Assembly: GCF_000003815.2 (NCBI RefSeq)
Contig: NC_049990.1
Span: forward strand, 12,653,443 to 12,717,442
Source: Branchiostoma floridae
Lineage: Eukaryota > Chordata > Leptocardii > Amphioxiformes > Branchiostomatidae
Direction of reading: 5' to 3'
Length of the DNA stretch: 64,000 nucleotides
The notes under the pieces are model-generated. The model made no database searches, was not told the DNA's origin, and saw only the letters and a program-made list of their open reading frames with translations. This document shows, piece after piece, positions 8,844 to 38,115 of this stretch (position 1 is the stretch's first letter; the number at the start of each line of letters is the position of its first letter). Made by a program: the position numbers and the translations under genes.

Positions 8844-9090
8844 ACACAATGGTTGCCACTGGTACGGAGTACACAGTCCTGTAGTTGTTGGGTTGTCATT
8901 CCAAACCTTATACCCAAAAAGTAGTTTAAAGGCTTATTTGTAGGGGTATTTGTATAGGTGGTAGGTAATAGTTGTCTAAACTGATATACAGTCATACCTG
9001 TCCTGAGCAACCACTCAAGGGACCGAGCAAAAATGGTTGCTGAGGACAGGTGGTTGCTCCCGACAAGTTGGTCAGTTGGCAAGCAAAAAT

Positions 9091-9096
9091 AATAAA
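9091..9096 (+). promoter_or_regulatory. Candidate polyadenylation signal inside the insertion
   Basis: AATAAA lies about 250 bp after the stop codon of JmjC copy 1 and 100 bp inside the inserted element. I see no canonical AATAAA between the stop codon and the insertion point. If used, the transposon would supply the 3' end of the host transcript. This is inference only. Confidence 0.25.
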
Positions 9097-9316
9097 TGAT
9101 ATGGTTTACATGATATATACCTTTCAGTTTGTTCTCAGGAAACATATCTACAAGAGATGCACTGAGTTTTTAATCTCCATGCTGTTATGTAAACAAATTT
9201 CAAGAAACCATTGTTTAACAATCAGAGCTGAGTTTGTCTAACAATCAAACATGGTTTGTTTTGTAGTTGTCTGTTTCCTTGAACAGCCCAAACAAGTGCT
9301 TTCAATTTCTCTTCCA

Positions 9317-10460
9317 GTATGAACGGATTCAGATGCAACTTGAGACATTATTATTGTCTCAAGTTGACATGATTTTTAGATCTGGGTACTATTTGTACAT
9401 AATATGATGTTATGTACTCCTAAACCCTACTCAAGACTGGCTTCCCTGGCTGGAATTCCAGCGCCTTACCCTAGGCTTTTGTCTGGCTGGATTTCCAGCG
9501 GCTTCCATTTGAGATACTCTGGCTGGAAATCCAGCGGCCAGAGCAAGACTGCCACCCTGGCTGGAATTCCAGCGCCTTACCCTAGGCATCTGTCTGGCTG
9601 GATTTCCAGCGGCTTCCATTTGACTGCTTCTCTGGCTGGAAATCCAGCGGTCCAGAGCAATCCAGCGGTCCAGAGCAAGATTGCTTCTTTGGCTGGAATT
9701 CCAGCGGTCCAGAACAAGACTGCCAGCCTGGCTGGAAATCCAGCGGCACTGTTTAACAGTGCCTCCCTGGCTGGATTTCCAGCGGCTCTGTTCAACATTG
9801 CCAGCCTCGCTGGAAATCCAGCGGCCCTGTTCAACACTGCCTCCCTCGCTGGATTTCCAGCGGCCCTGTTCAACATTGCCTCCCTCGCTGGATTTCCAGC
9901 GGCCTGTTCAACACTGCCACCCTCGCTGGAAATCCAGCGGCCCTGTTCCACACTGCCTCCCTGGCTGGATTTCCAGCAGCCTGTTCAACACTGCCACCCT
10001 CGCTGGAAATCCAGCGGCCCTGTTCAACACTGCCTCCCTGGCTGGATTTCCAGCGGCACTGTTCAACACTGCCTCCCTGGCTGGATTTCCAGCGGCACTG
10101 TTCAACACTGCCTCCCTGGCTGGATTTCCAGCGGCCCTGTTCAACACTGCCTCCCTGGCTGGATTTCCAGCGGCACTGTTCAACACTGCCTCCCTGGCTG
10201 GATTTCCAGCGGCCCTGTTCAACACTGCCTCCCTGGCTGGATTTCCAGCGGCACTGTTCAACACTGCCAGCCTTGCTGGAAATCTATCGACCCTGTTCAA
10301 CATTGCCTCTCTCAATGGATTTTCAGCGACACTGTTTAACACTGCCTCCCTCGCTGGAATTCCATCGGCCCTGTTCAACACTGCTTCCTTTCAAAACAGG
10401 TATACTCCTTACCTAGTGCTTTATTCGGTACCTTATATATACACGATGGCTGAATTTTGA
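9317..10460 (+). repeat. 39-bp palindromic minisatellite with conserved flanks (left block)
   Basis: Roughly 25 units of a 39-bp repeat occupy about 9440-10385. Each holds GCTGGATTTCCAGC, GCTGGAAATCCAGC or the perfect palindrome GCTGGAATTCCAGC, with a spacer like GGCACTGTTCAACACTGCC. The block starts with a hairpin (9336-9366: 12-bp arms CAACTTGAGACA and its complement, 7-nt loop) and a conserved lead-in to 9440. It ends with TGCTTTATTCGGTACCTTAT and GATGGCTGA. The whole block reappears inverted at 36390-37772. Because 39 is divisible by 3 and the unit lacks stops, open frames run through it on both strands; they are not genes. It resembles the minisatellite families reported in amphioxus DNA, a link I cannot verify here. 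Confidence 0.85.
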
Positions 10461-11849
10461 CGATGGCTGAATTTATTGTAATATAGTACTTTTATAGTAG
10501 AAATATATTTGTATATGTGTCTACAGTAAATGTCAACAGTAACTTACTTTTATAAGCGTTTTCTGTCCGATTTATAACTGATACAACATCATTGGTGCAT
10601 TTTGCGGGTTTTAGCGACCCGGAGACAAAAAAGTTAGGGCCCTGTGCCACCCCTGCTTTAGGTACGCAAGACCGTCTTAGACATCCCTCATCCATCGTCT
10701 TCCGGTCACAGAACGTCCCGCAATCTTCTGCAGAACACGTAAATAGCTCTGAACATCCCGCAATCATCCGCAGAACTTGTAAAAAGTTATGCAAGAGCCT
10801 TGTCAAAACAAGGCGGCAGGCGGCGATTTTAGCCGCCTACTTACATTTTTCCAGTCGGCTACTTTGGGTTAGAATTTCAAAAAATAAAAGTTTAAGTCCA
10901 GTGTTCCCTGTTACAAAATCCCCCAGCAATTTGTTTTGATAAACCTCTGGCAGTTTTCTGATAGTTGGCCCCCGGTTAGGGGTCATAGCGGGGAACCTAT
11001 GCCGATTTTTTTTGAAATTCAGGATTTTTTTGTCAATTCAAAGTTTAAAGATAACAGTAAAAGTTACCCACAATACACCCCCAAACCATATTTAGGGGTC
11101 TAAATTTAAAAATTTTTCCAGGGGGAGGCCCCCCCAGACCCCCCCTACAGGACGGGGGGACACCCCTCCTGTACCTACCCCCCGGTTGCCACTTCGTGGC
11201 TTGCCGCAAGCCGCTATGCGCCTTGCCTGCTACTTTCATATATTAGCCCCTTAGTCTAAAAGTTTGTGACAAGGCTGAATTAGATGCCCAAAGCCTTCTG
11301 CAGAGATCCACAAATTCCTACGAATTCACAATAAACAGCTCACAAAACTACAATCTATGATGATACTCATTGGTAGCTGAGTGTATGATTGTTACGTAGT
11401 ATGAAATGCTACAAATAAAATAATCCGGCGTTATAAAACTATGTTGGCATACACGTAATATGGCAAAATGTTCAAGAACACTGGCGTCTGTCAGTGGCTG
11501 CATGTGTAAATAAACATCCCTTCAGCAGCACAACTCTTCTATAGCACAGGTACAAACTGCAATTTGATTTGGCCAAAGTTAAGGAAAAAATAGAAAGAAC
11601 AACATTTGCCCTGGAGCACAGAAAGCATATTTCGATCCATGGTCATCCCCATTCGCAAATGTACTGTTCTATATCAATCTTAAGCATAAATTGTTTTGAT
11701 TATCCAACAACATCATCCCACTCCAATTTTTAAACTGGATGTCTAAAAGTTGCCCCTTAATACAAGAATGGACTCTTCCAGAACACCCCCATCTATGTAA
11801 AATGGACTGGTCTATGTGTCCCATTTCCCATTTCTAGTTAACAGCTACC
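10461..11849. other. Intergenic DNA inside the insertion, no gene recognised
   Basis: No coding region is supported. The part at 11097-11230 is very C/G-skewed (blocks of C and G around CCCCCAGACCCCCC) followed by a GTTGCCACTTCGTGGC hairpin-like stretch. It has the look of a short dispersed repeat, but I see no second copy in this window. Confidence 0.4.
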
Positions 11850-13640
11850 CTTATACCAAATTCTAGATCGGTTGACTATTTGAGTATTTCATGACAAAGG
11901 AAGCAAAAATATAGATTTTTGAACCAAAATCGCAAAAAAGTCTAAATGTAAGTGGGCACATACGTTCTGTATGCATCCTCATACCAAATCTCAGGTCCTT
12001 TGGTTTTCATACAAATGCATAGGAGGCAAACCAATAAATATTGTGGCTAAAATGACAAAAAAATCCAAAATTTCAACAATTTCATGAAAGGTGTTACCAA
12101 AGTGAAAATGACGGGCTGTCGGCACATGTGCCACACCCCTTCATATCAAATTTCAGGTCATTTGGCTTTAGGCTCGTTCGCATTTAAATGTCGAAATGCT
12201 GTCGCCTGACTTTACGCCTTGATATGGAGCAAATTATAGACAACATCACTGGTCCCTTCATTTTTCTATAACCCCTGTAATGTTTTACAAAAGATGCACC
12301 ACAACATTCTTATAGGTTGGTGGGTTAGAAGATTGATATAGCCACGGGTGGGATTTCACACCCTAAAAAATGGCTGTCGCCTAAGAAGAAACGAAGAATC
12401 CAAAGAGTACCCAAAAATGTAATAATTCAGTTCCCAGAATGACTGTTCCGCAGGTGAAACCAGCTGACCAGGCCCTCTGACCGATCACGTCAGATCGCTA
12501 CTAATAGTACTATCACTGATCTTGGAGGCTGTGTGAGGAGGTTTATGCCTGTCGCCAGATTCTGTAACAAACGTTACCACCACTAGTACGATGGTTGCCA
12601 CGGTTATATTATCCACGTATAAGACTAGAAATGGCCATTTTTGTGACGCTGTACAGTTTTTTGGCTTTCTAAAGAAACAAGAAAGGGTTGTTGACTGTCA
12701 TTTGTATCCCACCTTGCTTAACAAAATGTTGTACAGAAATGACTGTAACAAACGTTACCATTGTTCGATGCTGTCTAAGCTTTCTATTTGACCTGGTGTA
12801 AAAAAGCTGCACACTTTTCAAATGTCCCTAGGGACATCCACTTATACCTAAATGATGTAGTCAATAAGGTAAGTCCTTTCGAAGAAAACAGGGTAAAGTC
12901 TACTGTTGTAACAAGCGTTACCGGTAACGTTTGTTACCTGCCCTGTAATGCATTACCAATGGGACCGAAAATAATAAGTTTCCATTTTTTGGCTATGGTT
13001 AAAAGAGGGATTTTTCTTAACAACAACATAGTTTTCACTAAATCAAGCCGATTTATTGTTCCACCAAAAAATGCCATTTTCGACATTTGAATGAGAACGA
13101 TTATTTAATACAAGGCATGGGAGCCAAAAATATACATTTTTTTGTCACAAAATGGCATCAAATTCAAACCCCAACTCATTTTTGAAGTGATGTATACACA
13201 AAGTGTCGATGGCGTCCTAATGGGCATATGTCCAATGCAAACTGCAGGTCATTAGGTTGTAATACAAGAGCACAAAGGCCCAAAATATCCATTTTTGGTT
13301 TAAAAATGACCCCCCAAAAATAAAGTTTAAAGTTTAAGGCCTCTATTAAAAAGTGAAAAAAAACGCCTGGGGTATTTACTATCTCTAACTCCTCGGCAAA
13401 TAAATTTCAGTTCATTTGGCCTCAAAATGAAAAAGATGATTCCATTTGAAAATTTGGCAGGTGATGAAGAAACATGACAAAACACAATATAATTTAATCC
13501 AAAACACAATATAATTCAATCCATGTGTGGATTGAAATATAATTAGAGCGCTGTGACAAAAAAAATAGCAAGAACAGTCTGGGACCGAACTATAGATTAT
13601 GCGGTTTGATACACGCAAACGGCAGCATCGAGGCCACACT
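11850..13640 (-). repeat. Dispersed-repeat tract with recurring CAAATTTCAGGTCATTTGG motif
   Basis: Variants of CCAAATTTCAGGTCATTTGG occur near 11985, 12146, 13238 and 13404, separated by AAAAATCGCAAAA-like stretches. The reverse complement of this motif (AAATGACCTGAAATTTGGTA) is the hallmark of the repeats at 35160-36312 and 42477-43288. This tract is therefore probably an old relative in opposite orientation. No Helitron-type end was seen here. Confidence 0.4.
12908..12937. repeat. Palindrome GTAACAAGCGTTACC / GGTAACGTTTGTTAC
   Basis: Two 15-bp arms abut at a GGTAACC-type centre with one mismatch. The half-site TAACAAACGTTACC also occurs singly near 12568 and 12747 within 400 bp, so it may be an internal repeat of a decayed element. 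No regulator can be named. Confidence 0.5.
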
Positions 13641-16600
13641 AAACTTTCTCACGGTGAGTGGTCTTGAGTCATATCACACATCGCAAATTTTTGAAAATCT
13701 TACCGCTACCTCCGGGCAGTCTGAAGTTTCGAGGGACGTAAATCCAATCATTTCAGCATTTTAGCAAATAGAAATACTGACAGCAAACAATTTTATATTC
13801 GTCGCCAATAAACGAGGTTCTTTCATTTGTCTTTGAAGAATACCGAAACATTTATTGCAAAGGCATGTTATTGTGCTAAAGAAATAAACGACTCGCGCTT
13901 CCAAATCTGAAATCGGTAAGACGCGTGATTTGTGGAACCGAGGCAAATCTAAGCTGGACTAGCTTATGTACAAATTATATATGTTTTTGTCCACCAGCCG
14001 CCGCGACCGTGGTCACGACAAGCTAGCGCAAGCGGTACAAAAATATTGTAACAAACAAGAGTGTTGCCTGACGTATTCAACACGTTTTCTCCGGTGGAAC
14101 GCAGGAGGCCCGTTACAGGTCAGTCAGAAAACTTTTGTATTTCAACAACAAAGAACAACTTGTACTTTGAGAGACTAGTATGTCGGTCCGCCGTTTGATT
14201 CAAAATGTCAGAAACGCCGACAAGAGCATAATACGTCTATCGGGTTATTTTACGCCCGGCGTTACAGCCAACGTATTCTAAATGTATTCTAATCTAAACA
14301 GGGCCGGTACACTCCCTTAGTAACGTATATATTCCTCTCCCGCCATTTTTCATTTCCAGGCATACTTTCCTTTCCCGTCGTATTCCCGGATAGAAATGGC
14401 AAATCGACGTCCACCCCCCCACCCCCCACACCCCCACACCAAGAAAAAAAAAAAAACTTTCGCCAAGGTCCTAGAGACGACGGTCGGGTGAAGGAGGCTA
14501 CTTTGAAACCCTGTGTCTGTCCCAAAACACCGTCAGACACCGACCTAAAAATAGATGGAAATTTGACACCCACATGCGCGAAAACGTGGGCTTGTTCTGG
14601 AGAAAAACGTACCGAATGCTGCAACAGATCGACGGTAAATTGGTATTATCAGTGCCGAGAAAACTCTTAACTATAGAAATTGAGACAATTGTGAATCTAT
14701 ATCTTTGTGGTTGCAGAGCTAGTTTCCGACCTACACTGGAAAAAAGTGAAACGGTCTCCCGTTGGGCAAGGGCGGCGCCGCCACGTGCCTGGAAGCAGTG
14801 TGAAACCAGTGTAGGAAACAGTGCGAAACCAGTGTAACAAGCAGGCGAAAAGAAGGAAAAAACAGGCAAAAATTACGACTACACAACATATTTTGTCATT
14901 CATGATCAGAAAACATTACATTCCAAACGTAGCCTTTGCCGACCAAATTTCCGGCTTCTTACTTAGAAATGACACGTGCTGAAGTCATGGCTGGGCGTGA
15001 GGTCTTTGATTACTCTGGTCTTTAATTGACATACTCAAGCACGTCGTGACTCCGGCGGCGTGAATTCCAAAACGTGCTGTGATATAGTCACTAGATGAAA
15101 TAACTTCCACACGAGGCAAAGATATGTATGCACCAATTGTATAGAAAATCAAATGCAGATGGACAAATGGATCGAAGTTTGAATATATAACCTCCACGTT
15201 TAGTTTAGATAATAATAGATTATATGAAAGTGAAGTCGCGGTTAGAATACAATTTGTACACATACCCCCTATGCGGGCATGCTGCCGTAAGGAACTCAAA
15301 ATGAAAAGAAGAAAAAAATCCAGAGAAAATCACTTTGCCCTTCTCCCCTTCCTGCAACTGTCAAGGACGTCCTATGTCCACAGAGACCACGCTGACGCAA
15401 AAAAAAAATTAATTAGGCAAGTGATAGCCTCGAGTCCAGCCTTGTACTGTTGATGAAAGCTTGATACGTTTTGCAGGGAAAACGTTATAAAGTTTCCTAT
15501 TTATAAGACGAAAAGTTGGGCACGCATCCCCAAAAATTCCACAATTCACCTACATTAAAGCGCCTAAACAAGTGTACATGTACTCGAGGACGCCCTTGAT
15601 GTACTTTAGAAATGGTCGCCAGCGTCCTCTCCCGCGCGTCATATTTTCTTCCCAAATAAGGAAATCTACGGACACTGCAGGCATCTCGCTCGCAGTTCGG
15701 GCAGTCTTCGGCCAGCATCGGAGTGCGTGACGTCATAGCCGGGAATCTTTTTCATGAATTTTGCAGATTTGGGCCAAATACAGACTACTGGCATGCCATC
15801 GAATACAAATACACAATACTGTGCTGTGCTATGCTAGTAACCGGGATGGCACTGGATCCCTGCTGATCGTTCATCAAGATAAGAGGGTCACTCAACAGGC
15901 CGCATGTCAGGTCTGGACTGAACACGTGATTACAAGATTGATAAGGAAAGGACACCCTGGGACCTACAGAGCCTGGCGTAGTTGGAGACCTAAACCAGAA
16001 CAGTTACGGGTACTAATTTGTGAATCAAAAGGAGTGATGTACAACATAAACACGTACAGTAAGGTTAATTTTTTTCCCAATGAAGAGTAGTTTCAGCCAG
16101 GTCATCAGCACAGAGGTCAACTAGAGGTCAAAGATGAATTCTAGTCTCTATCAGAATCCCATCAGCTGAAAAGGAGTGAAACTGTTTAAACGACACTTGA
16201 CTAGCCTGGTAAACAACTTTCAACTAAAAGAAAACTAGACCGAAATCTTAGCGATCCTTAGCACGGATATACCAGACCCCAACACGATCTCAAAGATGTT
16301 TTTGAGATCGGGCTGGGCCGGGCTATCGAAACCTCTGCTTGATTTTCCAACCCACCCAACATCTGCTTTGGCCTTCACGACTCACACTAGTCAAGTCAAT
16401 TCAACTTGAAGGGGCAACTCAGCGATTAAAATAACTTGGGTCTTACCAGCTCACGGTAAATGTCGGCCCTATATGTGTAATGAAATGTAGGTTTGATCAA
16501 AATAAGTGATTTTCCATTTTTGCCAGCTCACCACACATAAACAGATCATAGGAATCAAATTACTAGTAATTTGCAACCTTCTTTGTGTACGACTAGACTA

Positions 16601-19473
16601 ATACACATGTACAATTCTGGTGATATTATTAATACGATGGAATCTGAAGCAAAAGTCTGCAAACCTTGTTGCGTGTATAACAAGGCACTCAAAAAATGGC
16701 GCCAAAACTTCAACAGCTCCCCACCCCACCCTGTAACTCGATCAACTCATCTCACCTTAACTGTGCAAGTTCAGTATCAACAACCATAATCTATTACCAT
16801 ACCATGATACTAGCACTGCATACTCGACAATATCAGCATAACACGATTTCCTACCTGTATTTGTTGTCTCTTCATTTCTCATAAACAGGCAGACTGTTTT
16901 CCCCCGTACCGTCAGGGGTGGTCGTTAAAATACTTCCCCATCAAGTCCCACAGATATGTGTTTTCCGTTCCTTTCCCCTCTGTGTTTGGAACATCTGTTG
17001 TGGCGACTGGACTCCAACACTCCTACTCCCATAGTTTCTATACTAAGCTTAGCCATTGGAGAACGTATTTCGGAAAACACGATACAAGACGGTTCCAGTC
17101 CCTGCGTTTCAGTGAAGCATGATCAACTTTTGGAATTTCCGCCAAAGAACCCCGCGGTGCTGCCAGCCAGTGAGCGAGCTAGCTCCCAGCAGTGCCATAA
17201 TGTTTTCCAGCTGACCGGGCGTTCGTCTCTGGCTACGATCTAGTGGCAGTGAATCGTGAATAGCTTTGAAATACTGTACTGAGTAACATATAGCGACGTA
17301 CGTCTAATCGCCGTAATAAAATACACTGAGACTGAATTGTATTCTTGTACATGCTTCGAGATTTGGCGCCTCACGCGATGTTGGTAGCCTTCCTGTCTGA
17401 AAGTTTTTTAACAACTTTGTCCCAAAGCAGACGTGTCAACTGGATGGATGACGAAAGAGAAGGCCAAAAAGGACAAATACGTTGCCATGGGATTTCAGTC
17501 AGCTATCCAACAAGCTATCTGTCGGCCGGTCAGTTCACTCATCCTGGGCCAATTAAAGCAAAGGGTCGGAATTCCATTTATGTTTCTTTGGTGATCTTTG
17601 GTGGACACCGACAAAAATTGATTTCTAAATTATAACCTTGTAATAATGGGTTTTTATTCCTAACTTGGCCATAGTCCCCTATTGCTAGTATTCGGCCAGG
17701 TCGCGGGACTTCCCCTCGAGCTCGGCCGCTGGCCGAAACCATATGGTGAGCAAACTCCCGGGACAACTGCGAGAGATGTAGGGTTTGTTTTATTTCGAGC
17801 AGCTTCTGTGGCATTTTGCGCGTCTTTCTTGAAACTTGTGTGTATCTTTCTGTACTGTCGGCACATCGAAAAAAGCAAAGTGCCTAGACCCTGGAACCGA
17901 CTTTCAGAAAAGAAAACGGCCGGGTGCCTGTAGGATCGATAGAAATTTAAGGGACGAGATAGAACGAGGGCACAAAGTAAGAAACACGTACAAGCATTTC
18001 CAAGGGGTTGAATATAGCCTTGCATTCCATATCTAACATAAACTGTTGAAAGAATAACAACTCTATTGAAAAAAAAGAACAACTCTTAGGAGATTTATGT
18101 AAGCCCACAGTTTAATCCCTGTCATTCATAGAGCGACATATTCTCTTGTGATAATCTGTCAGTCTAAGAAAACGGTCGTGTAAAGTGGGTGTCAGACTCA
18201 CTCACACAATTCTCCTCTGGGTCTAATCCCTTCGATAATGACCTCCCTGACGGAGTCCTTGTTTTAATTCCTTATTATTTTTAGCCTTAAGGGGTACTGT
18301 ATATGACTGATTTGCCGTACTGTCATAGTGGGGTTCAAATGCCGTCAAACTGTTTGGGGTTACGGAGATCTTGTGAGCTGGCGGCCCGGGTTCGGCGCGG
18401 GTTGGAATCCCGGGAGCCAGGAGACTGTTTCTACTCGCCTCTCGTGTTCAGACGTACCTTCGCGGAACCTCGATGGCTTTAGAGGTGCCGTGAGCAGGCG
18501 TTGCGGTAAAGACAATGAACTAATCTCCAAGCACACACTCCTAGCCGGTTTCATTGCTCTGCCAGCTACTTTGATACTATCTTATGTAACCGTAGGATGT
18601 AACAGATCCGGATCTGTTTGGAGATAAACCACTGAACCCCTGTCTGCCAGTTGCAAGCGAATTGGGCAGATTCCACCCCACCCCCCACACTCCGACGGGC
18701 GGCGCATTTGCGTTTCAAGCCCAGATAAGCAGATTATTGGAAATCGCAGCATTCTCAATTAATTGAATATCAATGTTAATTTATTGATTGAAATGCGTCA
18801 AAAAATACACTTGCAATTAAAGAATGTACGTACACTTATAATACAGTGACGTCACATGTAACAATTCGTGAAATATACAGAAATGACCCAAATGTACCGC
18901 ACAATCCATATTTCACTCTATTGATATTATATGTTTTGTATGGTCGACGGTGTCCACGGTACGGTGACGGTACGTTGGTGGCGTCAGACGCCAACATGCC
19001 CCTTTAGTGTTGAAATAGTCAAAAGGTTCTGGATTCGTATCCCCAGTAGACCCTAATCATTGTGCCATAGGGAACAGCGCTTTTCACACATTTCCTCACT
19101 CGAACAGGTGAGAATGAGTGACTAGCTTCGATTACGGACGTCTTCTCCGATGGGATATGAAATTTGTGTTTGAGGAGAGCCACATCTCAGGCGCGACAAA
19201 CAACCGTCCACACTTAAAATATCAAAATGACGAGGTTCTTCCCGGTGTGAGTGGATAAAACCTTACAGTTCAGTCTTAAAAAGCTTTACCTAATGCACAA
19301 AACTGCACAATGTACGAAGCAAACAAAAGTGATTCCTAGGTGTACAGGTGTATAAACTTTATATACTAGTATATCGACCTCCCTTGTAAACCAGTCAATC
19401 ATGGCAGAAGTGAATCAAACAGTTGGTCTCAACAAAACAAATAATTTCACCTGTCTGTACTATCACTATGTAA
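13641..19473. other. Intergenic DNA inside the insertion, no gene recognised
   Basis: Short open frames occur but none shows recognisable protein motifs, codon bias or splice-linked continuation. Low-complexity spots include a C-run followed by poly-A at 14411-14457 and a C-rich tract at 18668-18690. A GC-rich stretch near 18365-18420 contains GGTTGGAATCCCGGG, faintly like a tRNA box B, but no box A or cloverleaf could be placed. Confidence 0.4.
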
Positions 19474-19925
19474 AGCCCCCTTCACACGGGAGCACGAATG
19501 AGCCGGAATGCCGTCAGAACGAAATTGATTTTCTATTCCTGACAATTCCTGGCAATTCGTACTGTATTCTAAACATTCGTCCTGCATTCCAGATATTCGT
19601 CCCCGTTCTTTTGGCCAGCTCGAAAGTTTTTGACATGTCAAAAACTGTCGAGGTGCATTCGAAGTGGAGAAATATCGATTGGCATTCCACTGGTGGATTC
19701 TAAATGTATTCTAACTGCAGTCCGACCGCATTCTGTGGCATTCTAACATCATTCGAAACATTCTTATCTCATTCGATGGAGAACCGAAACGGCAAGCCAC
19801 TTCGAATCCGGTCCGAATGTGACCAAAAGAGTATCTGGAATGCAGTACGAATTTCCAGGAATGGAAAGGAATTTTCATTCTGACGGCATTTGGGCTCATT
19901 CCTTCTCGTGTGAAGGGGATATAAG
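19474..19925. mobile_element. MITE with ~60-bp terminal inverted repeats
   Basis: The left end CCCCCTTCACACGGGAGCAC is matched by the inverted right end ATCCCCTTCACACGAGAAGG. Inner parts of both arms share GAATGAGCC and AATGCCGTCAGAA up to a common CATTCCTG or TATTCCTG. About 450 bp long, with no open frame. The interior repeats many GAATTC/CATTC-like words, giving a partly palindromic body. Superfamily not assigned. Confidence 0.7.
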
Positions 19926-24690: not shown

Positions 24691-25129
24691 TCCTTTCAAC
24701 ACTAGAAATCTATTTCCGATGCAGTTCTAATCATTTTTACATTGGTGCACAATCTACAGTGAACGAACTCCAGCGTACCTCAACAGTACCTCCGCTCAGT
24801 ATAACAGGAGATTTATGTCATTTCCTTTACTGTAAGGGTATTTTGGTTAAGGTAGGACATATAGTTAATGATGTTACCTATGTTGTTCCAAGTATCATAT
24901 TAAGTGAATATCCTTTTATATTTTCAAATCTCTTTTTGATGATGCATCGTATTTTTATTTATAAATTGACAACGCTGTGATTTCCAATAACCCGTTCATT
25001 TGGACTTGAAACGCAACAGTGCCTCGAGTGCAAGAGAAAAGTGGCTAAAATAGCGCAAAAGTGCCTCCGTGAACAAAGTCTACAGTGCCTCCGCTTGGTA
25101 AGGGTATTGACTGCCATCTACAATTTCTG

Positions 25130-25580: not shown

Positions 25581-25727
25581 CGCATTTATCCCAAACAACT
25601 TCAGGTACAAATATAGAAGTCTGACTGCAGGAGCACTCGCGACAGTTAGTCTGAGCACCTTGCTATATTTCCAGTCAAAACCTGCATGCTCATTTCAAAT
25701 GCCAATGTGCATCTACACTGATCCTGT
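25553..25727. repeat. Direct repeat, copy B
   Basis: Second copy of the sequence at 21942-22093, in the same orientation. It overlaps the start of the minus-strand LINE fragment, so the pair could be two copies of the LINE's upstream region. Confidence 0.6.
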
Positions 25728-25740
25728 CGTTAAATTCTGC

Positions 25741-26849: not shown

Positions 26850-26955
26850 TCTGTGAAACACAAACTCTACTGTCCGGGCTGTACCTAGTCCCTCCCCACT
26901 AGAGGCCAGCAATGTTGGGCTGGCTGTATAGAAGCGTGATTAAATCAGGCTAGAG
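26850..26955. repeat. Dispersed repeat, copy A (CTGTCCGGGCTGTA...AATCAGGCTA)
   Basis: Shares an ordered series of words with 29032-29128: a GTCTGTG-like start, CTCTRCTGTCC-GGGCTGTA, a GGCCAGC or GGCCGGC block, TTGGGCTGGCTGTATA and GATTAAATCAGGCTA. About 105 bp, in the same orientation. It may be a short MITE; no function is seen. Confidence 0.55.
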
Positions 26956-27826
26956 TTTCAAAGGTTGGTAAAGGCAAATTAAGGTTAATAATGTTTATTT
27001 CATACCACCACACAGATGGTTATGGGTGTTTTATTTTATGTGATCAATATATAAGCACGCTGCAAAGTTTATCAGATTTAATATCAATTCGCAACATTTC
27101 TAAGACGTACGATGTTCGCCTAAGCGTTACCCGTGGGTACCGTACACAGCGCTGTAGTTTTATTCTGAAGTCCCACTTTGTAAAGAGCAATATACAACTA
27201 ACCAAACCCTACAAATATTTAGCTAATTCAGACGATCTAAACTGTATTGAAATCTCACTGCAGTCTCACTGTTGAAGTTGCCTGTAGTCAGGTCGCCCAT
27301 GCAACAGGTGGTCCAACTGGTATTGTTCACACGGACAGTTACTTTACGGCCAAAGCATGGGCTTTGACCCCAAAAGTCGGTCTTTTTGAAAAGTGAGAAA
27401 CATTCAAAATACCGCACTTCGCAAATCATTTTAGGTATTGCCCACAAGGCGAGGCGATGGCAAACGTCACGAAAGGCGATAAAACGATCCTAAATATATT
27501 TTCAACATTATCTCCCGTATCATTGCACATCACGACAGTCATTGGAACGTAGCGCTACCCAATGTCGTCCTATTTGTAAAAAGCACAGAGACATTTAACC
27601 CAAGGGTAGAGAGACCAGTTCTACAAAGAATAATGGTGGTCTGTAACTTTCCTCCGCCCGTTTTAACGTCGTGTGAGCGTGATCTACCGGAATCCTGAGG
27701 TGTGCCGTGACTTATGCCCGGGTGACCTACATGCTTTGTCTGAAACACTCTATTTTGTCGCAGAATTTGTAGTGAATTTTGTCGACAGCCGACATACTGA
27801 CGCGTGCGCGCGCACATACTAAAGCA

Positions 27827-27829
<3 letters not shown>

Positions 27830-27880
<51 letters not shown>

Positions 27881-27897
27881 AACACACAAACGTAGAC
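27830..27897. repeat. (CA)n microsatellite
   Basis: Nearly pure CA dinucleotides with four CAAACA interruptions, followed by a short (CG)n stretch around 27904-27915. Open frames read from the other strand (VCVCVCV) are artefacts of the repeat. Confidence 0.95.
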
Positions 27898-27951
27898 AGT
27901 CACACGCGCGCGCGCAAATAAATAAACGCGTGTACATTCACAGACCACTAT

Positions 27952-28466
27952 AAGGTGGGGTCACACCTGCGTATATGTTTAAGTCCGTGTGAGGCGCGCA
28001 TGGGAGTATTTACCTCCACCAGGCTCCACAGGTCGTTGGAAAAAATAGATATTGGACAAACATAAACAGGTTACAAGTCAGACGAGTTAGCTTGGTCGCT
28101 AACCATACTTCTCGGTCAGCTAACTCATCTGGCATGTTATGTATCTATTTTTGTCCAATTTCTACTATTTTCACCACGACCTGTGGAGCCTGGTAGAGAG
28201 TAAGAGCTTCATACGCACCTAAAACGGACTTGAATATATACGCATGTGTGACCCCACCTATAAAAGATACATAACATGCCAGATGAGTTAGCTGATCGAG
28301 AAGTATGGTTAGCGACCAAGCCAACTTGACTCTGACTTGTTACCTGTTTACGTTTCTCCAATTTCTATTTTTTTCCAACGACCTGTGGGGCCTGGTGGAG
28401 GTAAATAATCCCATACGCGCCTCACACGGACTTAAATATATACGCAGGTGTGACCCCACCTATAGG
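27952..28466. mobile_element. Foldback MITE with one left and two right ends
   Basis: The outer ends are AGGTGGGGTCACACCTGCGT on the left and the complementary ACGCAGGTGTGACCCCACCT on the right, with arms of about 200 bp. The centre (28146-28261) contains a further right-type end, ATACGCATGTGTGACCCCAC, preceded by another ACGACCTGTGGAGCCTGGT block. The structure therefore looks like overlapping or nested copies of one element. A related left-type end, AGGTGGGTTTACACCTGCGT, begins right after it near 28464. No open frame. Confidence 0.75.
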
Positions 28467-29031
28467 TGGGTTTACACCTGCGTATATTTCCAAGTGCGAA
28501 TGAGGTCCGTGTGAGCTTCTGTCAATACGCAGCCGTACGCCCAACGTGAAATTTTGTGGAATGAATCAAATTATACGTCACGCCCATCTGGTGTATGAAT
28601 TACGACTTTAGCGTCTTCATTTCGCCATGATGAGGTGCGTATGATTTGCATATGAAGTGTGCAACACAATTTTCCTTGCCGTGAATAGCTGTGTGTGAGT
28701 TACGTATGCTGAGCGTAATCCGGACGCACACAACGTCTGCCGACCGCATGTCTGACGCACCTGGCGTTAATTGCTTTCCGAGCGTATTTCAGGTGAGTAT
28801 AACCGCAACTGCAGCCCGCTTTGTTTTCATTACCAATGCAGATTTCACAGAGTTGACATCATGCCCCACACGAAACGTGTATCTGCTACCGGCACTGGCC
28901 GTGGCCGTAGCTCCTTAGTTATAGACCGCCTGTTGATGCTGTACATGTAGTTGGCTGTGATGGCCGTAGTGACCACGGAGACCCTGCCACCGCCCCAGAA
29001 GAAGCGCCAGTTGCGTTAGACTTCGCCGCCC

Positions 29032-29128
29032 CTAGTCTGTGTAACCCAAACCCCTCTGTCCAGGGCTGTAACTGGGGGCCGGCGGATGTTTGGCGGGCTG
29101 CTATAAGCGAGATTTAATCAGGCTACGC
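29032..29128. repeat. Dispersed repeat, copy B
   Basis: Second copy of the family at 26850-26955, with CCCCTCTGTCCAGGGCTGTA, GGCGGGCTGCTATAAGCG and AGATTTAATCAGGCTA. Confidence 0.55.
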
Positions 29129-29933
29129 CGCCCCGTATACTCATACTTTTGTTCACGAGCATTGACAATTGAGCATTTTGTGTCAGAGGAACACTTTGTA
29201 CTACGTATACTTTTGTTTGGGACCAGTGCAAGCAGAACATTGAAAGTCAAAGTCAAAGAGATAACAGTGAAGAGGTTTTTTTTCTTATTTATTTGTGACC
29301 CTCGCTTTTACAGTTATGTGGGCCATCATTTACATTAAAAGTTATATCGCACTGTTAAGATTTCGCTGACAGACAAAGCTAAGTTTAATAACATATTTAT
29401 TAAGATATCCAGGGTTTCGGTCTTCCTTTTGTGAGGATGACGCCACCCAACATATTTTACCATGTCAAGCGCAGGCACAGGGCGTCGCAAGTGAGGTCCG
29501 GGGAATTTTAAAATCCTGACCCTCTGAAACACCATTTTCTGAATTTTGCTGGCTATCATATAAAGCTAAATAAGATGACATTTCTATATACGACAAAAAA
29601 GTGTTTGAGGGCACACCGTCCCATCCTACCCCCACCGTATTCAGCATCTGGAGCGCCGGAGGGACGAGATGTCGCAAGGAGGCCTAGAAAAAATTTGAAA
29701 TCTTTCCCCTCTAAAACGCTATTTCCTGTATTATCATGGGGTAATTTTGCTGGCAGACTAGGTTCAATGACATTTCTATTAGTAAAAAAGACTTTTGAGG
29801 GCGACGCCCCCTACATTTTGTTTTCAACATGTCGATGGCCAAAGGTGGCGTTGCAAGGAAGATATGGCGAAATTTGGAAATATTGTCCATCTAAAATGCC
29901 ATTCCTGTATATTGATCGGGAAAATTAGCTCTA

Positions 29934-30050
29934 TGTTCGGAAATCTCTATGTTCCGAAATCCCTATGTTCCGAAATCTCTATGTTCCGAAATCTCTATGT
30001 TCCAAAATCTCTATGTTCCGAAATCTCTTTGTTCCGAAATCTCTATATAA
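29934..30050 (+). repeat. 16-bp minisatellite AAATCTCTATGTTCCG, left array
   Basis: About seven head-to-tail units of AAATCTCTATGTTCCG with few changes. An inverted array of the same unit lies at 30862-30962. The two arrays face each other 0.8 kb apart, as if they were the arms of one element. Confidence 0.85.
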
Positions 30051-30861
30051 ATGGTTCCTGCAGCCTGCAATATATTCCGACATACATGCATGTAGGCGGC
30101 GGTCAAAGTACGCGATCGTTGAGGGAGGAAAGGCTAGCTCCTTGCTCACGGCGATTTACTCGCCGGGAGAAACATCCTACAAGTATCTAACACGGACCAT
30201 GGCGGCGTTTCCTATTCTTAGATCAAATATCTTTGCATTTTATTCTCCTTTTCTACCATTTGGGTGAACGAACTCCAACTCCATCGTGGTTTCAGACGAA
30301 TTTTCGTCAAACTTGGGAAGCGCTATTTAATGACCTGTAATGACCTCGCACCAACTTGATAGCATCGTAATGAAATTTTTTGACGAAGAATGAAAAATAT
30401 ACTCTCATTCATCAAAAATACATATCGATAACAAGTTACATAAACCAGTAAATAGATCTAATGATGTATGCATACAAAGTAAACATTCTTTTGAAATATA
30501 CATGCGATTATACACGAGACCAGATAAATGGTTCAAATGCGGTTAGAAAATCGTGTGTTTTTAGAAATGAAGAAAATTTTCCGCTGATATTTGCGATCGA
30601 GTTCAGACTCTGTTTCAGATAAACAGTCCAAAACTTCTCCATTTGCACAAGACTTAAGTACAATGTATTAGAAGAAGGTACATGATCTAAAACAAGAATT
30701 TGAATGTTTTCAACTCAGGGGGGCCACGCACGTGCACGCTACGTCGGAATCGGGTCGTTCAGGAAGGGTATCGGAAGCTTAGTTTGTGGGTATGAGTTTA
30801 GTACGAGTACTATAGACTTGAATACCATTCCTCGTTGTATGTACATGATTATACATTTCGG

Positions 30862-30962
30862 AATTATGTACATGATTATACATTTCGGAATATAGAGATT
30901 TCGGAATATAGAGATTTCGGAATATAGAGATTTCGGAACATAGAGATTTCGGAACATAGATC
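30862..30962 (-). repeat. 16-bp minisatellite, inverted right array
   Basis: Units of CGGAATATAGAGATTT and CGGAACATAGAGATTT are the complement of the array at 29934-30050. A TACATGATTATACATTTCGG unit is duplicated just before (30841-30890). Confidence 0.85.
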
Positions 30963-33743
30963 CTGTAATAACATGAAAACGATAGAAAAAAAAGCGGAAA
31001 ACAAGCCCCACTTCTTGCACTTGTGCATATTTTTATATGCCTTGTGAATATCACCAAGGGGGTTTCTAAACTCCCATTGTGGGTGCGCATTCTACGTCTT
31101 ACACAACATCTGCTTGGAGATTAGGCCAAAATAATGCCCAGCTGGGCTCTTGGAGTCGGACCTCGAACTGTAGGGTGGAGAGTGACCGTTGTTCAGGGAT
31201 TCAAGTGGGCGTGGCGTTATGCATGAAAGAAAGGCTGGAAATCGTTGGTCCACACTCTCACGATGGTTCTTATGAAGACAGCTGTTCATGTTTTTGCAAG
31301 GCCTTTGGTTAATTTAAAATATACTCTTTGATTTATCACCAGTATGATCACTTGACTAGAAATTCAGTACAATGAATGATGAAATGTAAAGTAGCATTTA
31401 ACTGATTCAGTTGGTTTTAATATGGATTTGGATATAACGATAGCCGAAGTCACGACTTGTTTATTCTTCAAATCGAAGGCTTAATTCTGGACAAAAGTGA
31501 TATCAGATATATCATCGTACGGAATATTTCGAGAAACAGAGCCAGTCAGTCCATTCGCGATTTTTCACTGGTAATACGCCGGGAGGGGAAAATATGTAGA
31601 TCTTCTTCTGTTTTTCCTTGGTTTGTTGGTGTATGAGTAGGACTCTGTAGAACCCGAAGGAGGCTGAAAAAGGAAGGCAGTGCTGGGCGAGGGGACACCG
31701 GTGTGTCCATATCAAGTCTGATACCAATTAAGCCCACCCGAACATTGCTGATAAGACGGTATCTCTTGGGGTGCGTTGCCAGGGAAACCGAAGTCTCCTA
31801 TGGCTTTTCAGGAATGCGGGCATGCGCTTTGCCAACATCGTCTAGAAGCGCCAAACTTGAGAACAGCTTCGGGGTCGTGTTTTGTATCACATATGTTTTC
31901 TCCTGTACTTTGGTGCTGTTGTGTTCTCGACACGCACCCGGGACTGGGACAAATAGGACTGCTGGGTGACCTTGTATACATCGGCGGGGGGAGGCAAACT
32001 TACACGGAAATATTTCTACGACCCGATGTCGCGAATTTTCGTGAGGCTGAACTTGTGAAGATGTTTCATTTAGCCAACGGGATCTCGGGGTGGCGATCAC
32101 TATTGAACATGGAGTATGGTGGTTTGGATGGACCTTTGAACAACAGAGACGTTCACGAAAAATCGTTCACGAAACCTCCTTAGATAATTTACCCACGAAC
32201 AGAAAATACCGTTTCTGAACTATCATGACTTCTAGCTATTAGACTGGAGAACGCAAGGTACGTAATCATCCTATTTTTGTTTAAATATTTTGGTTGAAAT
32301 CTCTGAAATAGCACAGTTCCTCGCGTATAGATATTTTGGCGCGCATGACAGGGGTGGTGGGAGGGGGGCAACTCTTCAATGTTTTGGCCTTTCCTGTACT
32401 GCCAGCATATACGTACACAAGCACTAATTTCCACTAGAATTCTATATTCCATAATTTCAGCTTCCCATGACTTTTGTATTTTATTTGATTTGTGTGTTGT
32501 GTTTGAAATAAAGGGCACCCGGCAAAAAACATTACGATTTTCCCTCCATAAACCATGCGTGCCACATGTGTTTTTGATCATGAGTGCCACTAGCTTTCAA
32601 CACGTCAAGCAGAAGTGCGGTTCCGGCTGTTTTTTTCAACGTGCTTTAGTCGTTTTTATCGGGCTTCCTTTTTGAAAACGGTACAAATTGAAATTTGACA
32701 AACGTCTAAAAACTGTTAACACGTCCAAAGTCCGGATCCGCCGTCTGCTTGGAAAGTATCTATACGATATCGATGTTGCGCAACGCGGCCAAACCAAATA
32801 GAGGAAGGCCTCATGGACACATGATCTACATGCAATTACATCTTTATAACAGATTTTTCCGTGGAATTATCAGCATAGCTGGTGACAACTTCTGCAATCT
32901 ATAATTTCCCGGTCCCGCTGGCAAAGTTAAATCTGGGCCACTGACGCGTGCACGTGTCGCAAGTCACTAGTTTGCTCCGCCCCTCCCCCATTTTTCACCT
33001 CCATCGGTTGTGAAGCATGCAACATCAGGATGTCCCTCTTCCTGTCTTCTACCATTGATGGCAGGGGTTAAAAAGACAACGTGCTAGATTCAAAATGGAA
33101 TTTATTTTACAACCTGAGTATGTTTTATGCAAGAAGTTCCACATTAAAAGTTACTCATTCGTTTAGAGAACTGTTGTTCTTGTCGTTTGTTATTGTAGTC
33201 ATGGTTCGTGAGTACTAATTAACCAATTACAGCTGAATTGGCGCCTTTTTGTGTCCTCTTCCAGGCTTCCCAGGTCGCTGGAAAAAGGCGAAAAATCAGT
33301 GAAGCTAGCCATTTTATACGAAAAGCACAATATGGCTGTTGCTCTGTAGATCTAACCCATGGTCCGACATTTCTCATGGGAGCGTGGACACCTTTGACAG
33401 CTTGTCCCTCCCCTTTGGGCTAATGATGTAACTTACACCAAGAACCTCTGTCTGATCAGATCATCAGATGTGTGTGGCGCTGGCTTGTATGTCTTCTTGT
33501 GCTTTGAGTTTTCGTCTCTCTTTGAAGGTATCACCAACGCGCGTAACGAGGAAGACAACAAAACAAATGACAAAATAATGTGCAAAGCAAGCCAAAACCT
33601 TGGCCAAAACCGTACATCTAAAACCGTACATCAATAAAATACTCTGCTAAATAGAGGCAATTAGCGAGGTGTCAATCAACTAAATCATTGAAGTCTGAAG
33701 TCTGAACCCTGCTGTTATTCTCTGAAATTACATTTAACCATAA
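30963..33743. other. Intergenic DNA inside the insertion, no gene recognised
   Basis: Several overlapping short open frames at 31500-32200 on both strands show no known motif. I see no splice-linked gene, tRNA or clear repeat here. Confidence 0.4.
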
Positions 33744-33913
33744 TACTGTAAATGCAGAAATGTTCGCGGTGGATTAATGTTTGCGGTTTTCGCGGCAACC
33801 ACTTCACCGCGAACTTAAAACCACCGCGAACATTTTTCTATTATGGTATTAGACTGCAGTCTATGTTGTTACCACGAAATTAAATCCCCGCGAACTTAAA
33901 TGCATTTACAGTA
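33744..33913 (+). mobile_element. TA-flanked MITE (ACTGTAAATGCA ends), copy 1
   Basis: Begins TACTGTAAATGCAGAAATGT and ends AACTTAAATGCATTTACAGT, giving terminal inverted repeats of about 14 bp. The interior is rich in TTCGCGGTGG / CCACCGCGAA inverted words. Two further copies occur at 39178-39388 and, inverted, at 48286-48482. Confidence 0.8.
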
Positions 33914-35159
33914 ATATTGCTGAATATCATAGAAATTTGTACAAAATGAACACCCTTCTGATATAATTGAACTGCAAAAAAATGTACCTCGTGCCCTTGA
34001 GTCTTCCGAAGTTTTTTTTTCCACCAGGTAATTCATCCAAACTGAGACTTTGGTGATCTATACACCGGGTATGACGTTATAAGGCTCATTACAGCTGGTT
34101 TGGAACTTCGCACTGTTTTTATTTATCAATCTTGTAGGGTTGTCCCTTCAATTGTTAACGATTTCCAAGGGAGCTCTGCAGAAAATCAACATGAACTTAA
34201 CAATAATCATATACTAGTAACATAAAACGTAAGTAATCGAACATTGGGGTAGTAACTTACCTGATCAACTCAAAACAAGTTAAACAATACCAACTCATAA
34301 TCATTAATTGCAGAACTCAGCACAGCAATAGAACAAAACATAACTTAACTTCGGCTCTTAAGAGAAGCAAACAAAGCAAATATTACGTTTTTTCAATTAT
34401 ATAATTACGATAATTAAGCTCTAGTTATCAAACAATTTTTTTGAAAGCTGTGATGCCAGGTTCCAAAGCAGCTACCATGTTGATTGTGATGTCATACCTG
34501 ATAAAGAGCTGGATGTATACTAGTAGTGCTCAATAAGGCGGAAGGGTGTGTATTTGGTGTAAATGTTATGTTGAACAGTTCATTGAATGATAATATTCTT
34601 GTTACAAACAACAAGGAAATGTTGTATTTTTGTGTCTACCCTTTAGTTTCAAGTATGAGGGCACTGCTTGTAACCTTCAGCCTCAAAACATGAAAGATTG
34701 TAAACAACAAAATCTTCATAATGTTGGTTGACAGAATCATTTTTGTAATTATTTTTTTTACTCTTATGAAAGCAATGTGTTTAGAAAGAAAGGAACACGT
34801 GTATCCTAGTTGTTTGGGCACCAATTTTGTACACAACTACTTATACCAGATAAACCTCATTCCTGCACAAACCCAATTACAATGATACAGATCAGGCCAA
34901 AGCACTTTTGCATTCAGAGGCTGAAATTGCTACAACTTGTACAACACACTTCCAGCTGCTATGAGGCATTTGTAAACTTTACAATGGCTGCAATGCCCAT
35001 GTAATATCTTGACCCCTGACCTCCACTTCAACTGTTGAATTTACTGTTGAATTGGTACCCCTGGTTGAAAGGGTGAAATTGAACACGTTAGTGACTGTAC
35101 ACAAGGCAGTTCGCCTTGTAGGTGCAGATGTGCCTTGATAATCCCTTCATATAAATTCA
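33914..35159. other. AT-rich intergenic DNA, no gene recognised
   Basis: Apart from the LINE-tail-like block at 34125-34340 nothing is recognised. Short open frames lack motifs. Confidence 0.4.
34125..34340 (-). repeat. LINE 3'-end-like repeat
   Basis: TTTATTTATCAATCTTGTAGGG followed by TTGTCCCTTCAATTGTTAAC and TTCCAAGGGAGCTCTGCAGA, then an A/C-rich tract. It resembles the block at 7140-7200 and is probably the 3' end of a minus-strand LINE or SINE. Confidence 0.4.
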
Positions 35160-36312
35160 ATAACACTTTTGGTGTACAGTGCAACAAAATGCTTATTTTT
35201 GCGATTTTTGGCCAATTTTTGACCAAAAAAGGACACTTTTGGCTCCTGTACCCTGGTATTACAATTAAATGACCTGAAATTTGGTATAGATAGGCATTAG
35301 ATACTTGGTAACAAGATTCAAGTAAAATTTTTGACATAAACAACTTTAAAATGATTAATTTTGGCACTTTTCTGAGGGGAAATTTGTTTTCTTTTGGCCT
35401 CCTGACGTGACCTTCCGTGACCCCGCACAGAGCCACACCTGTGCGCGTCAGCCGGAGAGTTAATTGAATCAAAGACCTAGCCAATCAGCGAAGAGGAGGC
35501 CAAAGGCTAATTAATATTCATAAGCGGGGCCTCATGATCCCGTATATAGCAGTGTTCCCGCCAGTGGGAGCGAAGCCCGCCTAAGGCTCTCGCATTTTAG
35601 ACTATTCAGAAGGCTTTATATTGTATCAGTTCTTAGGGGCATATCTATGATAATCGCAGCAGTCACTTAACTTCTCTTCAGGAGTTTAGCGTAACACTAT
35701 TTCAGGTCAAACCGTCAAAGGCAACTAAAAACAAACTTTAACGTTACTGAGTTCAACAGTACTTATAACTTGTTATCCGAAGTTGAAACGCTAGCGATGG
35801 TATTTTCGCTGCGCTGTTAGCTCCGTGCGACTGTTGTTGACGGTCTTATAACGGTATATTTTGCACCCCTGTACCCTGGTATGAGTGGCATTTGGTATAG
35901 ATAGGCATAAGATAGTTGGTAAAATGATCCAAGTAAAATTTTTGGCATAAAGNNNNNNNNNNNNNNNNNNNNNNNNNNNNNNNNNNNNNNNNNNNNNNNN
36001 NNNNNNNNNNNNNNNNNNNNNNNNNNNNNNNNNNNNNNNNNNNNNNNNNNNNNNNNNNNNNNNNNNNNNNNNNNNNNNNNNNNNNNNNNNNNNNNNNNNN
36101 NNNNNNNNNNNNNNNNNNNNNNNNNNNNNNNNNNNNNNNNNNNNNNNNNNNNNNNNNNNNNNNNNNNNNNNNNNNNNNNNNNNNNNNNNNNNNNTGAACT
36201 TGATACGCATCCATTTTGCGCAGGGGTGATTTGGAACAGTCCAATGTTGCGTGGGAAGGGGTATGGCTGAAATATGCTGTATTTGCTCTTAAGCAAATGT
36301 CGGCCTTTCTAG
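35160..36312 (+). mobile_element. Helentron-like non-autonomous element, copy C, with assembly gap
   Basis: The right end has GGCTGAAATATGCTGTATTTGC, a hairpin ATTTGCTCTTAAGCAAAT, then GTCGGCCTTT and CTAG (36309-36312). The same end occurs at 43253-43287 and, inverted, at 45676-45720. The body carries CCTGTACCCTGGTATTACA and AAATGACCTGAAATTTGGTA words as in the 42477 copy. The left boundary is not defined, and 242 N interrupt the element. Confidence 0.55.
35953..36194. other. Assembly gap (N)
   Basis: A run of 242 N. Open frames crossing it consist of unknown residues and are meaningless. Confidence 1.
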
Positions 36313-36389
36313 TTTATGTAATAACCTCTATGAGCAACCAAGACTTTCGAATAACACAGTCGATAAAGTACTAGCGCTCGTTTACATGT

Positions 36390-37772
36390 ACTGGATCAGC
36401 CATCATGTATATACTATATATCTGGAAAATAAGGTACCGAATAAAGCATTTGGCAAGGAGTATACCTGTGTTGCAAAGAGGCAGTGTTGAACAGGTCCGC
36501 TGGAATTCCAGCGAGGGAGACAGTATTGAACAGTGCCGCTGGAAATCCAGCGAGTGAGGCAGTGTTGAACAGGGCCGCTGGATTTCCAGCCAGGCTGGCA
36601 GTGTGGAACAGGGCCACTGGATTTCCAGCGAAGGAGGCAGTGTTAAACAGTTTCGCTGGAAATCCAGCCAGGTTGGTAGTGTTGAACAGTGCCGCTGGAT
36701 TTCCAGCCAGGGAGGCAGTGTTGAACAGGGCCGCTGGAAATCCAGCCAGGGAGGCAGTGTTGAACAGTGCCGCTGGAAATCCAGCCAGGGAGGCAGTGTT
36801 GAACAGGGCCGCTGGAAATCCAGCCAGGTTGGTAGTGTTGAACAGTGCCGCTGGATTTCCAGCCAGGGAGGCAGTGTTGAACAGGGCCGCTGGAAATCCA
36901 GCCAGGGAGGCAGTGTTGAACAGTGCCGCTGGAAATCCAGCGAGGGAGGCAATGTTGAACAGTGCCGCTGGATTTCCAGCGAGGGTGGCAGTGTTGAACA
37001 GGGCCGCTGGATTTCCAGCCAGGGAGGCAGTGTTGAACAGTGCCGCTGGATTTCCAGCGAGGGAGGCAGTGTTGAACAGGGCCGCTGGAAATCCAGCCAG
37101 GGAGGCAGTGTTGAACAGTGCCGCTGGAAATCCAGCGAGGGAGGCAATGTTGAACAGTGCCGCTGGATTTCCAGCGAGGGTGGCAGTGTTGAACAGGGCC
37201 GCTGGATTTCCAGCCAGGGAGGCAGTGTTGAACAGGGCCGCTGGAAATCCAGCCAGGGAGGCAGTGTTGAACAGTGCCGCTGGAAATCCAGCGAGGGAGG
37301 CAATGTTGAACAGTGCCGCTGGATTTCCAGCGAGGGTGGCAGTGTTGAACAGGGCCGCTGGATTTCCAGCCAGGGAGGCAGTGTTGAACAGTGCCGCTGG
37401 ATTTCCAGCGAGGGAGGCAGTGTTGAACGGTGCCGCTGGATTTCCAGCGAGGCTGGCAGTACTAAGTGTTGAACAGGGCCGCTGGATTTCCAGCGAGACT
37501 GGCAGTGTTGAACAGGGCCGCTGGATTTCCAGCCAGGGTGGCAGTCTTGCTCTGGCCGCTGGATTTCCAGCCAGAGTATCTCAAATGGAAGCCGCTGGAA
37601 ATCCAGCCAGACAAAAGCCTAGGGTAAGGCGCTGGAATTCCAGCCAGGGAAGCCAGTCTTGAGTAGGGTTTAGGAGTACATAACATCATATTATGTACAA
37701 ATAGTACCCAGATCTAAAAATCATGTCAACTTGAGACAATAATAATGTCTCAAGTTGCATCTGAATCCGTTT
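36390..37772 (-). repeat. 39-bp palindromic minisatellite with conserved flanks (right, inverted block)
   Basis: This is the reverse complement of 9317-10460 in the same order. It runs GCCATCATGTATATA and ATAAGGTACCGAATAAAGCA, then about 30 units of the 39-bp repeat (36475-37640), then TAGGGTTTAGGAGTACATAA and the hairpin at 37727-37757. The array differs from the left one in unit number and in the order of ATTT- and AAAT-centred palindromes, so the two have diverged by unit turnover. Confidence 0.85.
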
Positions 37773-38115
37773 ATGTCAAAATTCTCACTGATAATCATTT
37801 TTGCACGGTGCACATTGTCAATATGCTTGATTGATATTCCCTTACATAAAGAAAATAAGTCTCTAAGTTCAGGGTAACTGTGGCTACATAATTCTTCATA
37901 TAAAATGGCTGCTAGCTGCTGTTAGTCAATTTTGGTTGTTCAGGGCAGGTTGAATGCCCCTTTGGGACTGTAAAAAAGTGGTTGCCGGTTGGGGAAGACA
38001 GGTGGTTGCTTGGGAGGGGGTCTTAACTATGTAAAAATGAACGGGACTGTTTCAATGTGTCCTCTGACGGCAGGTGGTTGCCTGCGCCAGGTGGTTGCTC
38101 GGACAGGTTTCACTG

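Follow-up and report, generated by a model that had tools for sequence, protein, structure and literature searches.

Non-autonomous DNA transposons are usually short, and the giant transposons of the Polinton/Maverick type leave 6-bp duplications and carry PolB and integrase genes. The element described here lies in a window of 64,000 nucleotides from Branchiostoma floridae (C12:12653443-12717442 of the searched genome, 513 Mb in 431 contigs), beside the first of two paralogous genes. It appears to be non-coding, and the locus is very probably the product of two events: the insertion of a miniature inverted-repeat transposable element (MITE), followed by the insertion into it of a foldback-like, non-autonomous DNA transposon of about 25-30 kb that was moved in trans. 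The latter is called the giant element below.

The architecture of the giant element is closest to that of foldback elements such as Tetris of Drosophila virilis. In the available parts of its description, Tetris has arms of up to 1,735 bp with units of about 220 bp, and duplications of 8-9 bp were seen in three complete copies (PMC4079207). As far as that text goes, the two are alike in having few complete copies, a middle in which no protein-coding capacity is apparent, and long inverted repeats where tandem repeats follow a flanking domain; both also appear to be non-autonomous. Unlike Tetris, the giant element has 39-bp units, 4-bp duplications and a length of 27.6-33.8 kb (PMC4079207). 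Its long inverted repeats (about 1.06 kb) with internal 39-bp tandem arrays are those of a foldback element. The term is nevertheless restricted to "foldback-like", because its duplications measure 4 bp, against about 8-10 bp in Tetris. Galileo, a member of the P superfamily, is similar in its variable inverted repeats, in which internal tandem repeats extend some copies. It differs in that its duplications measure 7-8 bp and a transposase-encoding segment is known, and no giant middle is mentioned in the accessible portion of the report (PMC4168063).

Two further comparisons concern the duplications and the size. Kolobok elements make TTAA-specific duplications, while KolobokP, which is present in Branchiostoma, has long direct terminal repeats and a total length of 1.7-4.7 kb in oyster families, and its solo terminal repeats mostly have duplications of 3-4 or 4-5 bp (PMC9587614, available in part). 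The 5'-RR...YY-3' ends described there agree with the AA...TT of the giant element, a weak likeness, since many sequences would pass (PMC9587614, same parts). The TTAA specificity of Kolobok is not shared, the duplications being TATG, TTTT, GTAG and CAAC; no Pfam family that could represent a Kolobok transposase was found between the arms, the presence of a Kolobok model in Pfam not having been checked. Among giant eukaryotic transposons, Teratorn is alike in that tens of kb are moved as a unit. According to the portion available, it carries a transposase plus about 90 other predicted genes, unlike the giant element, in which no gene is detectable (PMC6431247). The giant element also differs from Polinton/Maverick, in its 4-bp duplications and in that no Pfam domain was found. 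It is not assigned to any superfamily. A giant non-autonomous element of amphioxus is not described in the literature searched (including the available part of PMC5802833), most subscription journals being outside the search.

The outer MITE and the boundaries of the giant element

In the first-pass annotation, the block 8989-38115 was read as inserted as a unit, with CAGT inverted ends, a TA duplication and a preserved empty site. The outer junctions described there proved exact to the base. The left end reads CAGTCATACCTGTCC from 8989, directly after the TA at 8987-8988, and the right end reads CAGTGAAACCTGTCC (reverse complement), with its last base at 38115 and TA at 38116-38117. When the flanks were joined and compared with the second paralogue around 54081, 226 of 251 aligned bases (plus gaps) were identical, and one TA only was present. 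A probe covering 8950-9250 gave 40 scored matches from 237 candidates. Leaving out the window itself, 36 of 39 begin between query bases 27 and 41, where the boundary is base 40. The outer ends are therefore not a chance likeness, because nearly all scored matches start at or near the element boundary.

The claim of a single unit did not survive the comparison with related copies. The seven best-scoring relatives were fetched, and all seven run from the left half directly into the right half; between the query pieces 8989-9318 and 37775-38115 each has only two bases, the AT of TATG. The left-right junction was aligned for six of the seven. One relative (L002) matches all 671 query bases at 98.1% identity without an insert. 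Five further relatives cover all 671 bases at 92.7-94.4% identity, and another (L008) covers the first 590 at 89.2%. The uninterrupted sequence at the insertion point is CCAGTATGTCAAA. Because 7/7 relatives are uninterrupted across this interior point, 8989-9321 and 37772-38115 are the two halves of a single MITE of about 672 bp, into which 9322-37771 is a separate insertion. The case in which each CAGT end comes from a separate complete element, which would have undone the earlier interpretation, is thereby excluded. With its TA duplication, CAGT ends, shortness (about 672 bp) and many copies, the outer element resembles a Tc1/mariner-type MITE; it is taken here to belong with the CAGT/TA MITEs of the Tc1/mariner-pogo type, a superfamily assignment made from the ends only.

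The order in the window is TATG, AACGGATTC..., then 28,450 bp on ...GAATCCGTT, and a second TATG. As TATG borders both ends and stands once at this point of the uninterrupted MITE, the inner element is 9322-37771 with a 4-bp duplication. Its two arms (about 1.06 kb) are 87.9% identical over 1,083 aligned columns. When the outermost 119 bp are folded as single-stranded DNA, two hairpins are formed (z = -4.86), and none of 200 shuffles was as good. In the left arm, a tandem-repeat program recognised a shorter stretch with a 37-bp period and then a main array of 18 units. The earlier suggestion of a giant non-autonomous transposon or foldback element thus stands in part: its size class, the foldback-like arms and some nested insertions were found, while the CAGT ends and the TA duplication do not bound it, since it has its own ends and TATG.

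Copies elsewhere in the genome and their shared core

A terminus probe gave 26 matches in the genome, ten of which make five inward-facing pairs with a spacing of 27.6-33.8 kb; the remaining 16 are either single ends or diverged ones. Ends without a partner include those at C1:4193114, C5:22685938, C6:25935844, C14:14172780 and C3:700116. With a 24-base end pattern (up to three mismatches), 43 hits were obtained versus none for the reversed control. In each of the four fully readable two-ended copies, an exact 4-bp duplication flanks the element, and all four are different: TATG (window), TTTT, GTAG and CAAC (Table 1). A second empty site was provided by copy A. Its joined flanks belong to a high-copy repeat with 46 matches (40 scored of 1,574 candidates; two of the 46 are A's own halves), of which 38 continue across the joint (91-96% identity) and six are short. 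Copy A therefore sits in another repeat that is uninterrupted in the 38 long matches among those scored. The joined flanks of copy B matched no relative across the joint, so a third empty site was not found. The five end pairs, four exact duplications and two empty sites are as in a non-autonomous class II transposon with terminal inverted repeats.

Besides the ends, the copies share a core that is collinear apart from nested repeats, with 15,835-21,222 of 23,769 positions aligned per copy. Two core probes of 501 bp each, 15 kb apart, were used. The first (16750-17250; 10 matches in total) found six loci near full length, namely the window, A-D and E, and fragments on C13 and C17. The second (31700-32200; seven in total) found the same six loci, five of them over its full length and copy B over 430 bases, plus C3:683285 at 70% identity. 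In alignments anchored on the window, with gaps excluded and best local matches only, so that internal repeats may blur some positions, the closest pairs are window-A (98.6%), A-E (98.5%) and window-E (97.9%), followed by B-D (95.0%), C-D (93.5%) and window-B (90.4%), with E-B lowest (89.9%). Since pairwise core identity spans 89.9-98.6%, several separate moves are indicated.

The order of the large core blocks is constant among the copies, B and E being in the opposite orientation, and the exceptions seen are nested repeats. The repeat at 12171-13103 also occurs at other places in B and C, inverted relative to their core, and could be a mobile element with a preference for members of this family. 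Copy A has about 7.7 kb extra near window position 21750 (L036:2291-10000), a nested insertion. Against a mean variation of 0.14 changes per base among B-D, two 90-base windows (31732-31821 and 16071-16160) hold three changes each. The wider stretch 31710-32025 is kept at 70% in a diverged relative, and presumably promoter-like motifs in it resemble X-box and NRF1 sites. In this relative, the match at C3:683285 lies inside a region ending in the end motif at C3:700116, and scattered core similarity of 70-95% was found in C3:680200-690199 (L055) and C3:698500-701616 (L025).

Among the other diverged ends, L021 and L022 have common flanks, as in a duplication. Common sequence outside the end motif was also seen in L028 with L029 and in L030, L033 and L034, and these ends may be parts of other repeats. 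For L030, L033 and L034, about 156 bp around 1344-1500 are common outside the motif; this end may be an internal part of an older repeat.

Table 1. Positions of the outer MITE, the giant element, its internal features and its other copies (window coordinates unless a contig is given)
Feature	Position	Strand	Remarks
TA target duplication of outer MITE	left 8987-8988, right 38116-38117		single TA at 54081-54082 in second paralogue
Outer MITE, left half (CAGT end)	8989..9321	+	3' end is the TATG duplication of the inner element
Outer MITE, right half	37772..38115	+	starts with second TATG
Empty site of outer MITE	54081..54082	+	in second paralogue
Giant inner transposon	9322..37771		28,450 bp; ends AACGGATTC...GAATCCGTT
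TATG target duplication of giant element	9318..9321 left, 37772..37775 right		
Inverted-repeat arm, left	9322..10388	+	
Inverted-repeat arm, right	36711..37771	-	
Outermost 119 bp	9322..9440	+	counterpart 37653-37771; identical at both ends
Tandem arrays, left arm	9441..10388	+	37-39-bp units on palindrome GCTGGA(A/T)(A/T)TCCAGC
39-bp tandem array, right arm	36478..37662	-	28 units at 36478-37574 (tandem-repeat program)
484-bp stretch	10797..11280		missing in copy A, where the flanking core is continuous
Shared core	11281..35047		collinear with other copies apart from nested repeats
Nested insertion, about 933 bp	12171..13103		B, C and D continuous without it at the site
Nested insertion, about 818 bp	23293..24110		not at this site in D; elsewhere in B
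Highly conserved core stretch	31715..31842		
Assembly gap, 242 N	35953..36194		inside giant element
Copy A	C12:10785899-10819714		33,816 bp; flanking 4-mer TTTT
Copy B	C234:3610-37206		33,597 bp; flanking 4-mer GTAG
Copy C	C3:540605-572491		31,887 bp; flanking 4-mer CAAC
Copy D	C17:15519165-15546715		27,551 bp; right ACAT; left N except an agreeing T
Copy E	C12:12754346		one end only

Coding potential, movement and alternative explanations

The first-pass annotation had recognised no transposase inside the block, and none was found in the six frames between the arms using Pfam: 11280-26281 and 26200-35951 matched 0 families. The longest stop-to-stop frame in 10440-35950 has 147 amino acids. 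Over 100 simulated first-order sequences, the longest frame averaged 150, and in 49 it equalled or exceeded the observed length. Codon-position bias was sought in window-anchored alignments, in windows with at least 8 variable sites. None of the 56,238 overlapping windows reached p < 0.001 (best p = 0.0018), and the same held for the test at a three-base step. The window copy thus shows no codon signal, long frame or Pfam family between the arms, as in an element that lacks a transposase. For the other copies, nine of 34 frames of at least 130 amino acids (a list from which frames of the 39-bp array were filtered out) and one further frame were searched against Pfam, and none was above the cut-off (best E 0.079). 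In pairwise codon tests, windows with p < 0.002 numbered 1,041 of 124,051 for D-C, 213 of 160,842 for B-C and 133 of 116,668 for D-B. The five lowest p values of D-C fall in the arms, where windows can mimic codons because the 39-bp period is a multiple of three. Structured RNA models gave nine matches in the block, all below their gathering scores. The best is to a microRNA-precursor model at 23646-23844 (E 2.6e-12), which fits both strands and falls within the nested hairpin-like repeat 23293-24110. No tRNA was found in the window.

Taken together, these results suggest the following course. A MITE of about 672 bp with CAGT ends would have inserted beside the first paralogue, duplicating TA, and an element of about 25-30 kb that has foldback-like arms and in which protein genes are not detectable would then have inserted into the MITE, duplicating TATG. 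As neither a transposase nor an autonomous partner was found, we infer the movement in trans. A transposase supplied from elsewhere would cut (or copy) and paste the giant element, pairing its two identical outer ends and inserting the unit with a 4-bp stagger. Candidate binding sites lie in the outer 119 bp or so, with its pair of hairpins, and possibly in the 39-bp palindromic arrays. The variation in size would come from other elements inserted into individual copies or from stretches lost from them.

Several observations weigh against this reading. No transposase or autonomous partner came to light, and the frames around 15 other ends, judged by eye, revealed no such partner but appeared retrotransposon-like or host-like. 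A sequence of about 540 bp that is common near some ends was considered as a gene and rejected, being a dispersed small repeat. The lowest p values of the codon test lie outside the arms for B-C (3.6e-4) and D-B (3.4e-4); in view of the many overlapping windows, they are taken as probably not coding. In the Pfam control on the left flank (three forward frames), the JmjC/cupin gene it bears was represented by a single fragment below the threshold (20.9 bits versus a cut-off of 27.4, E 0.00038). The Pfam test is therefore weak for short exons and could miss small ones, as well as families that Pfam does not model. The two-ended copies are few (five), and several copies contain assembly gaps, which amount to about 2.2-2.5 kb in all in B and C and to 242 bases in the window copy. 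Copy E is one-ended, and its core breaks off at about the position that corresponds to 15605, close to which lies roughly 1 kb of N. Finally, two diverged single ends on C6 have common flanks, from which it follows that duplication also occurs in the wider group.

As to the origin of the giant element, it is possible, though less likely than not, that it began as a composite in which the outer ends of two short foldback elements, separated by about 24 kb, moved the pair jointly, with host DNA as cargo. Such an origin is compatible with the two nested insertions proposed here. The foldback-like arms do enclose a non-coding middle, and the gene-less core resembles trapped genomic DNA. However, no inner AACGGATTC ends (up to three mismatches) occur in the window, only the two outer ones, and the two core probes detected no single-copy donor locus: beyond the six copies, they gave fragments and one 70% match. 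It was also considered that a large autonomous or virus-like element has decayed, its genes having rotted away. The size within the range of giant transposons and the presence of several copies would suit this, but the same gene-less core is found in copies just 1.4% apart, Pfam gave no domain in any of six frames for the window copy and nothing above the cut-off for nine frames elsewhere, and the 4-bp duplications do not fit Polintons. Such a decay is improbable.

An assembly artefact is very unlikely in spite of the 242-base gap at 35953-36194 and the gaps in other copies, since the MITE halves, the TATG copies and the arms all fit a single insertion and the same arrangement is seen at independent loci. 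A single giant TA-duplicating CAGT element spanning 8989-38115 would account for the duplicated TA and for the clear empty site at 54081, but it is scarcely tenable, as its ends are the halves of a MITE of about 672 bp that is found uninterrupted, and the interior is bounded by ends and a 4-bp duplication of its own and has other flanks elsewhere. Segmental duplication instead of transposition could be suspected from the location of three of the six copies on one chromosome, where about 63 kb separate two of them, and from the two diverged C6 ends with common flanks, but it is just as hard to maintain, because the two-ended copies differ in their flanks and exact 4-bp duplications (four readable copies) and two of them sit in repeats with uninterrupted relatives.

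The preferred explanation, a MITE followed by a giant foldback-like element moved in trans, would mean that an apparently gene-less unit of about 30 kb has been mobilised repeatedly in an animal, at core divergences from about 10% down to 1.4%. If confirmed, this would be a naturally occurring example of a cut-and-paste-type system that moves very large cargo, and the exact ends (AACGGATTCWGATGCAACTTGAGA pairs) would provide a handle for finding the enzyme. A further proposal, rather doubtful at this stage, is that the element represents an undescribed superfamily of DNA transposons, with AACGGATTC ends, twin subterminal hairpins, 39-bp palindromic arrays and unspecific 4-bp duplications, whose normal long-lived form is the apparently gene-less one of about 25-30 kb and in which a conserved non-coding core segment perhaps matters for spread.

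Other features of the window

Outside the block, two 5S rRNA-like matches were found on the minus strand at 2170-2285 and 50492-50607 (43.4 and 44.3 bits, gathering score 38). They sit in a duplicated stretch upstream of both paralogues (2007-2773 and 50329-51099, 92.5% identity) and possibly represent a 5S-derived short interspersed nuclear element. A satellite occupies 57438-63967 in units of about 159-207 bp, many of which contain runs of the telomere-like hexamer TAGGGT.

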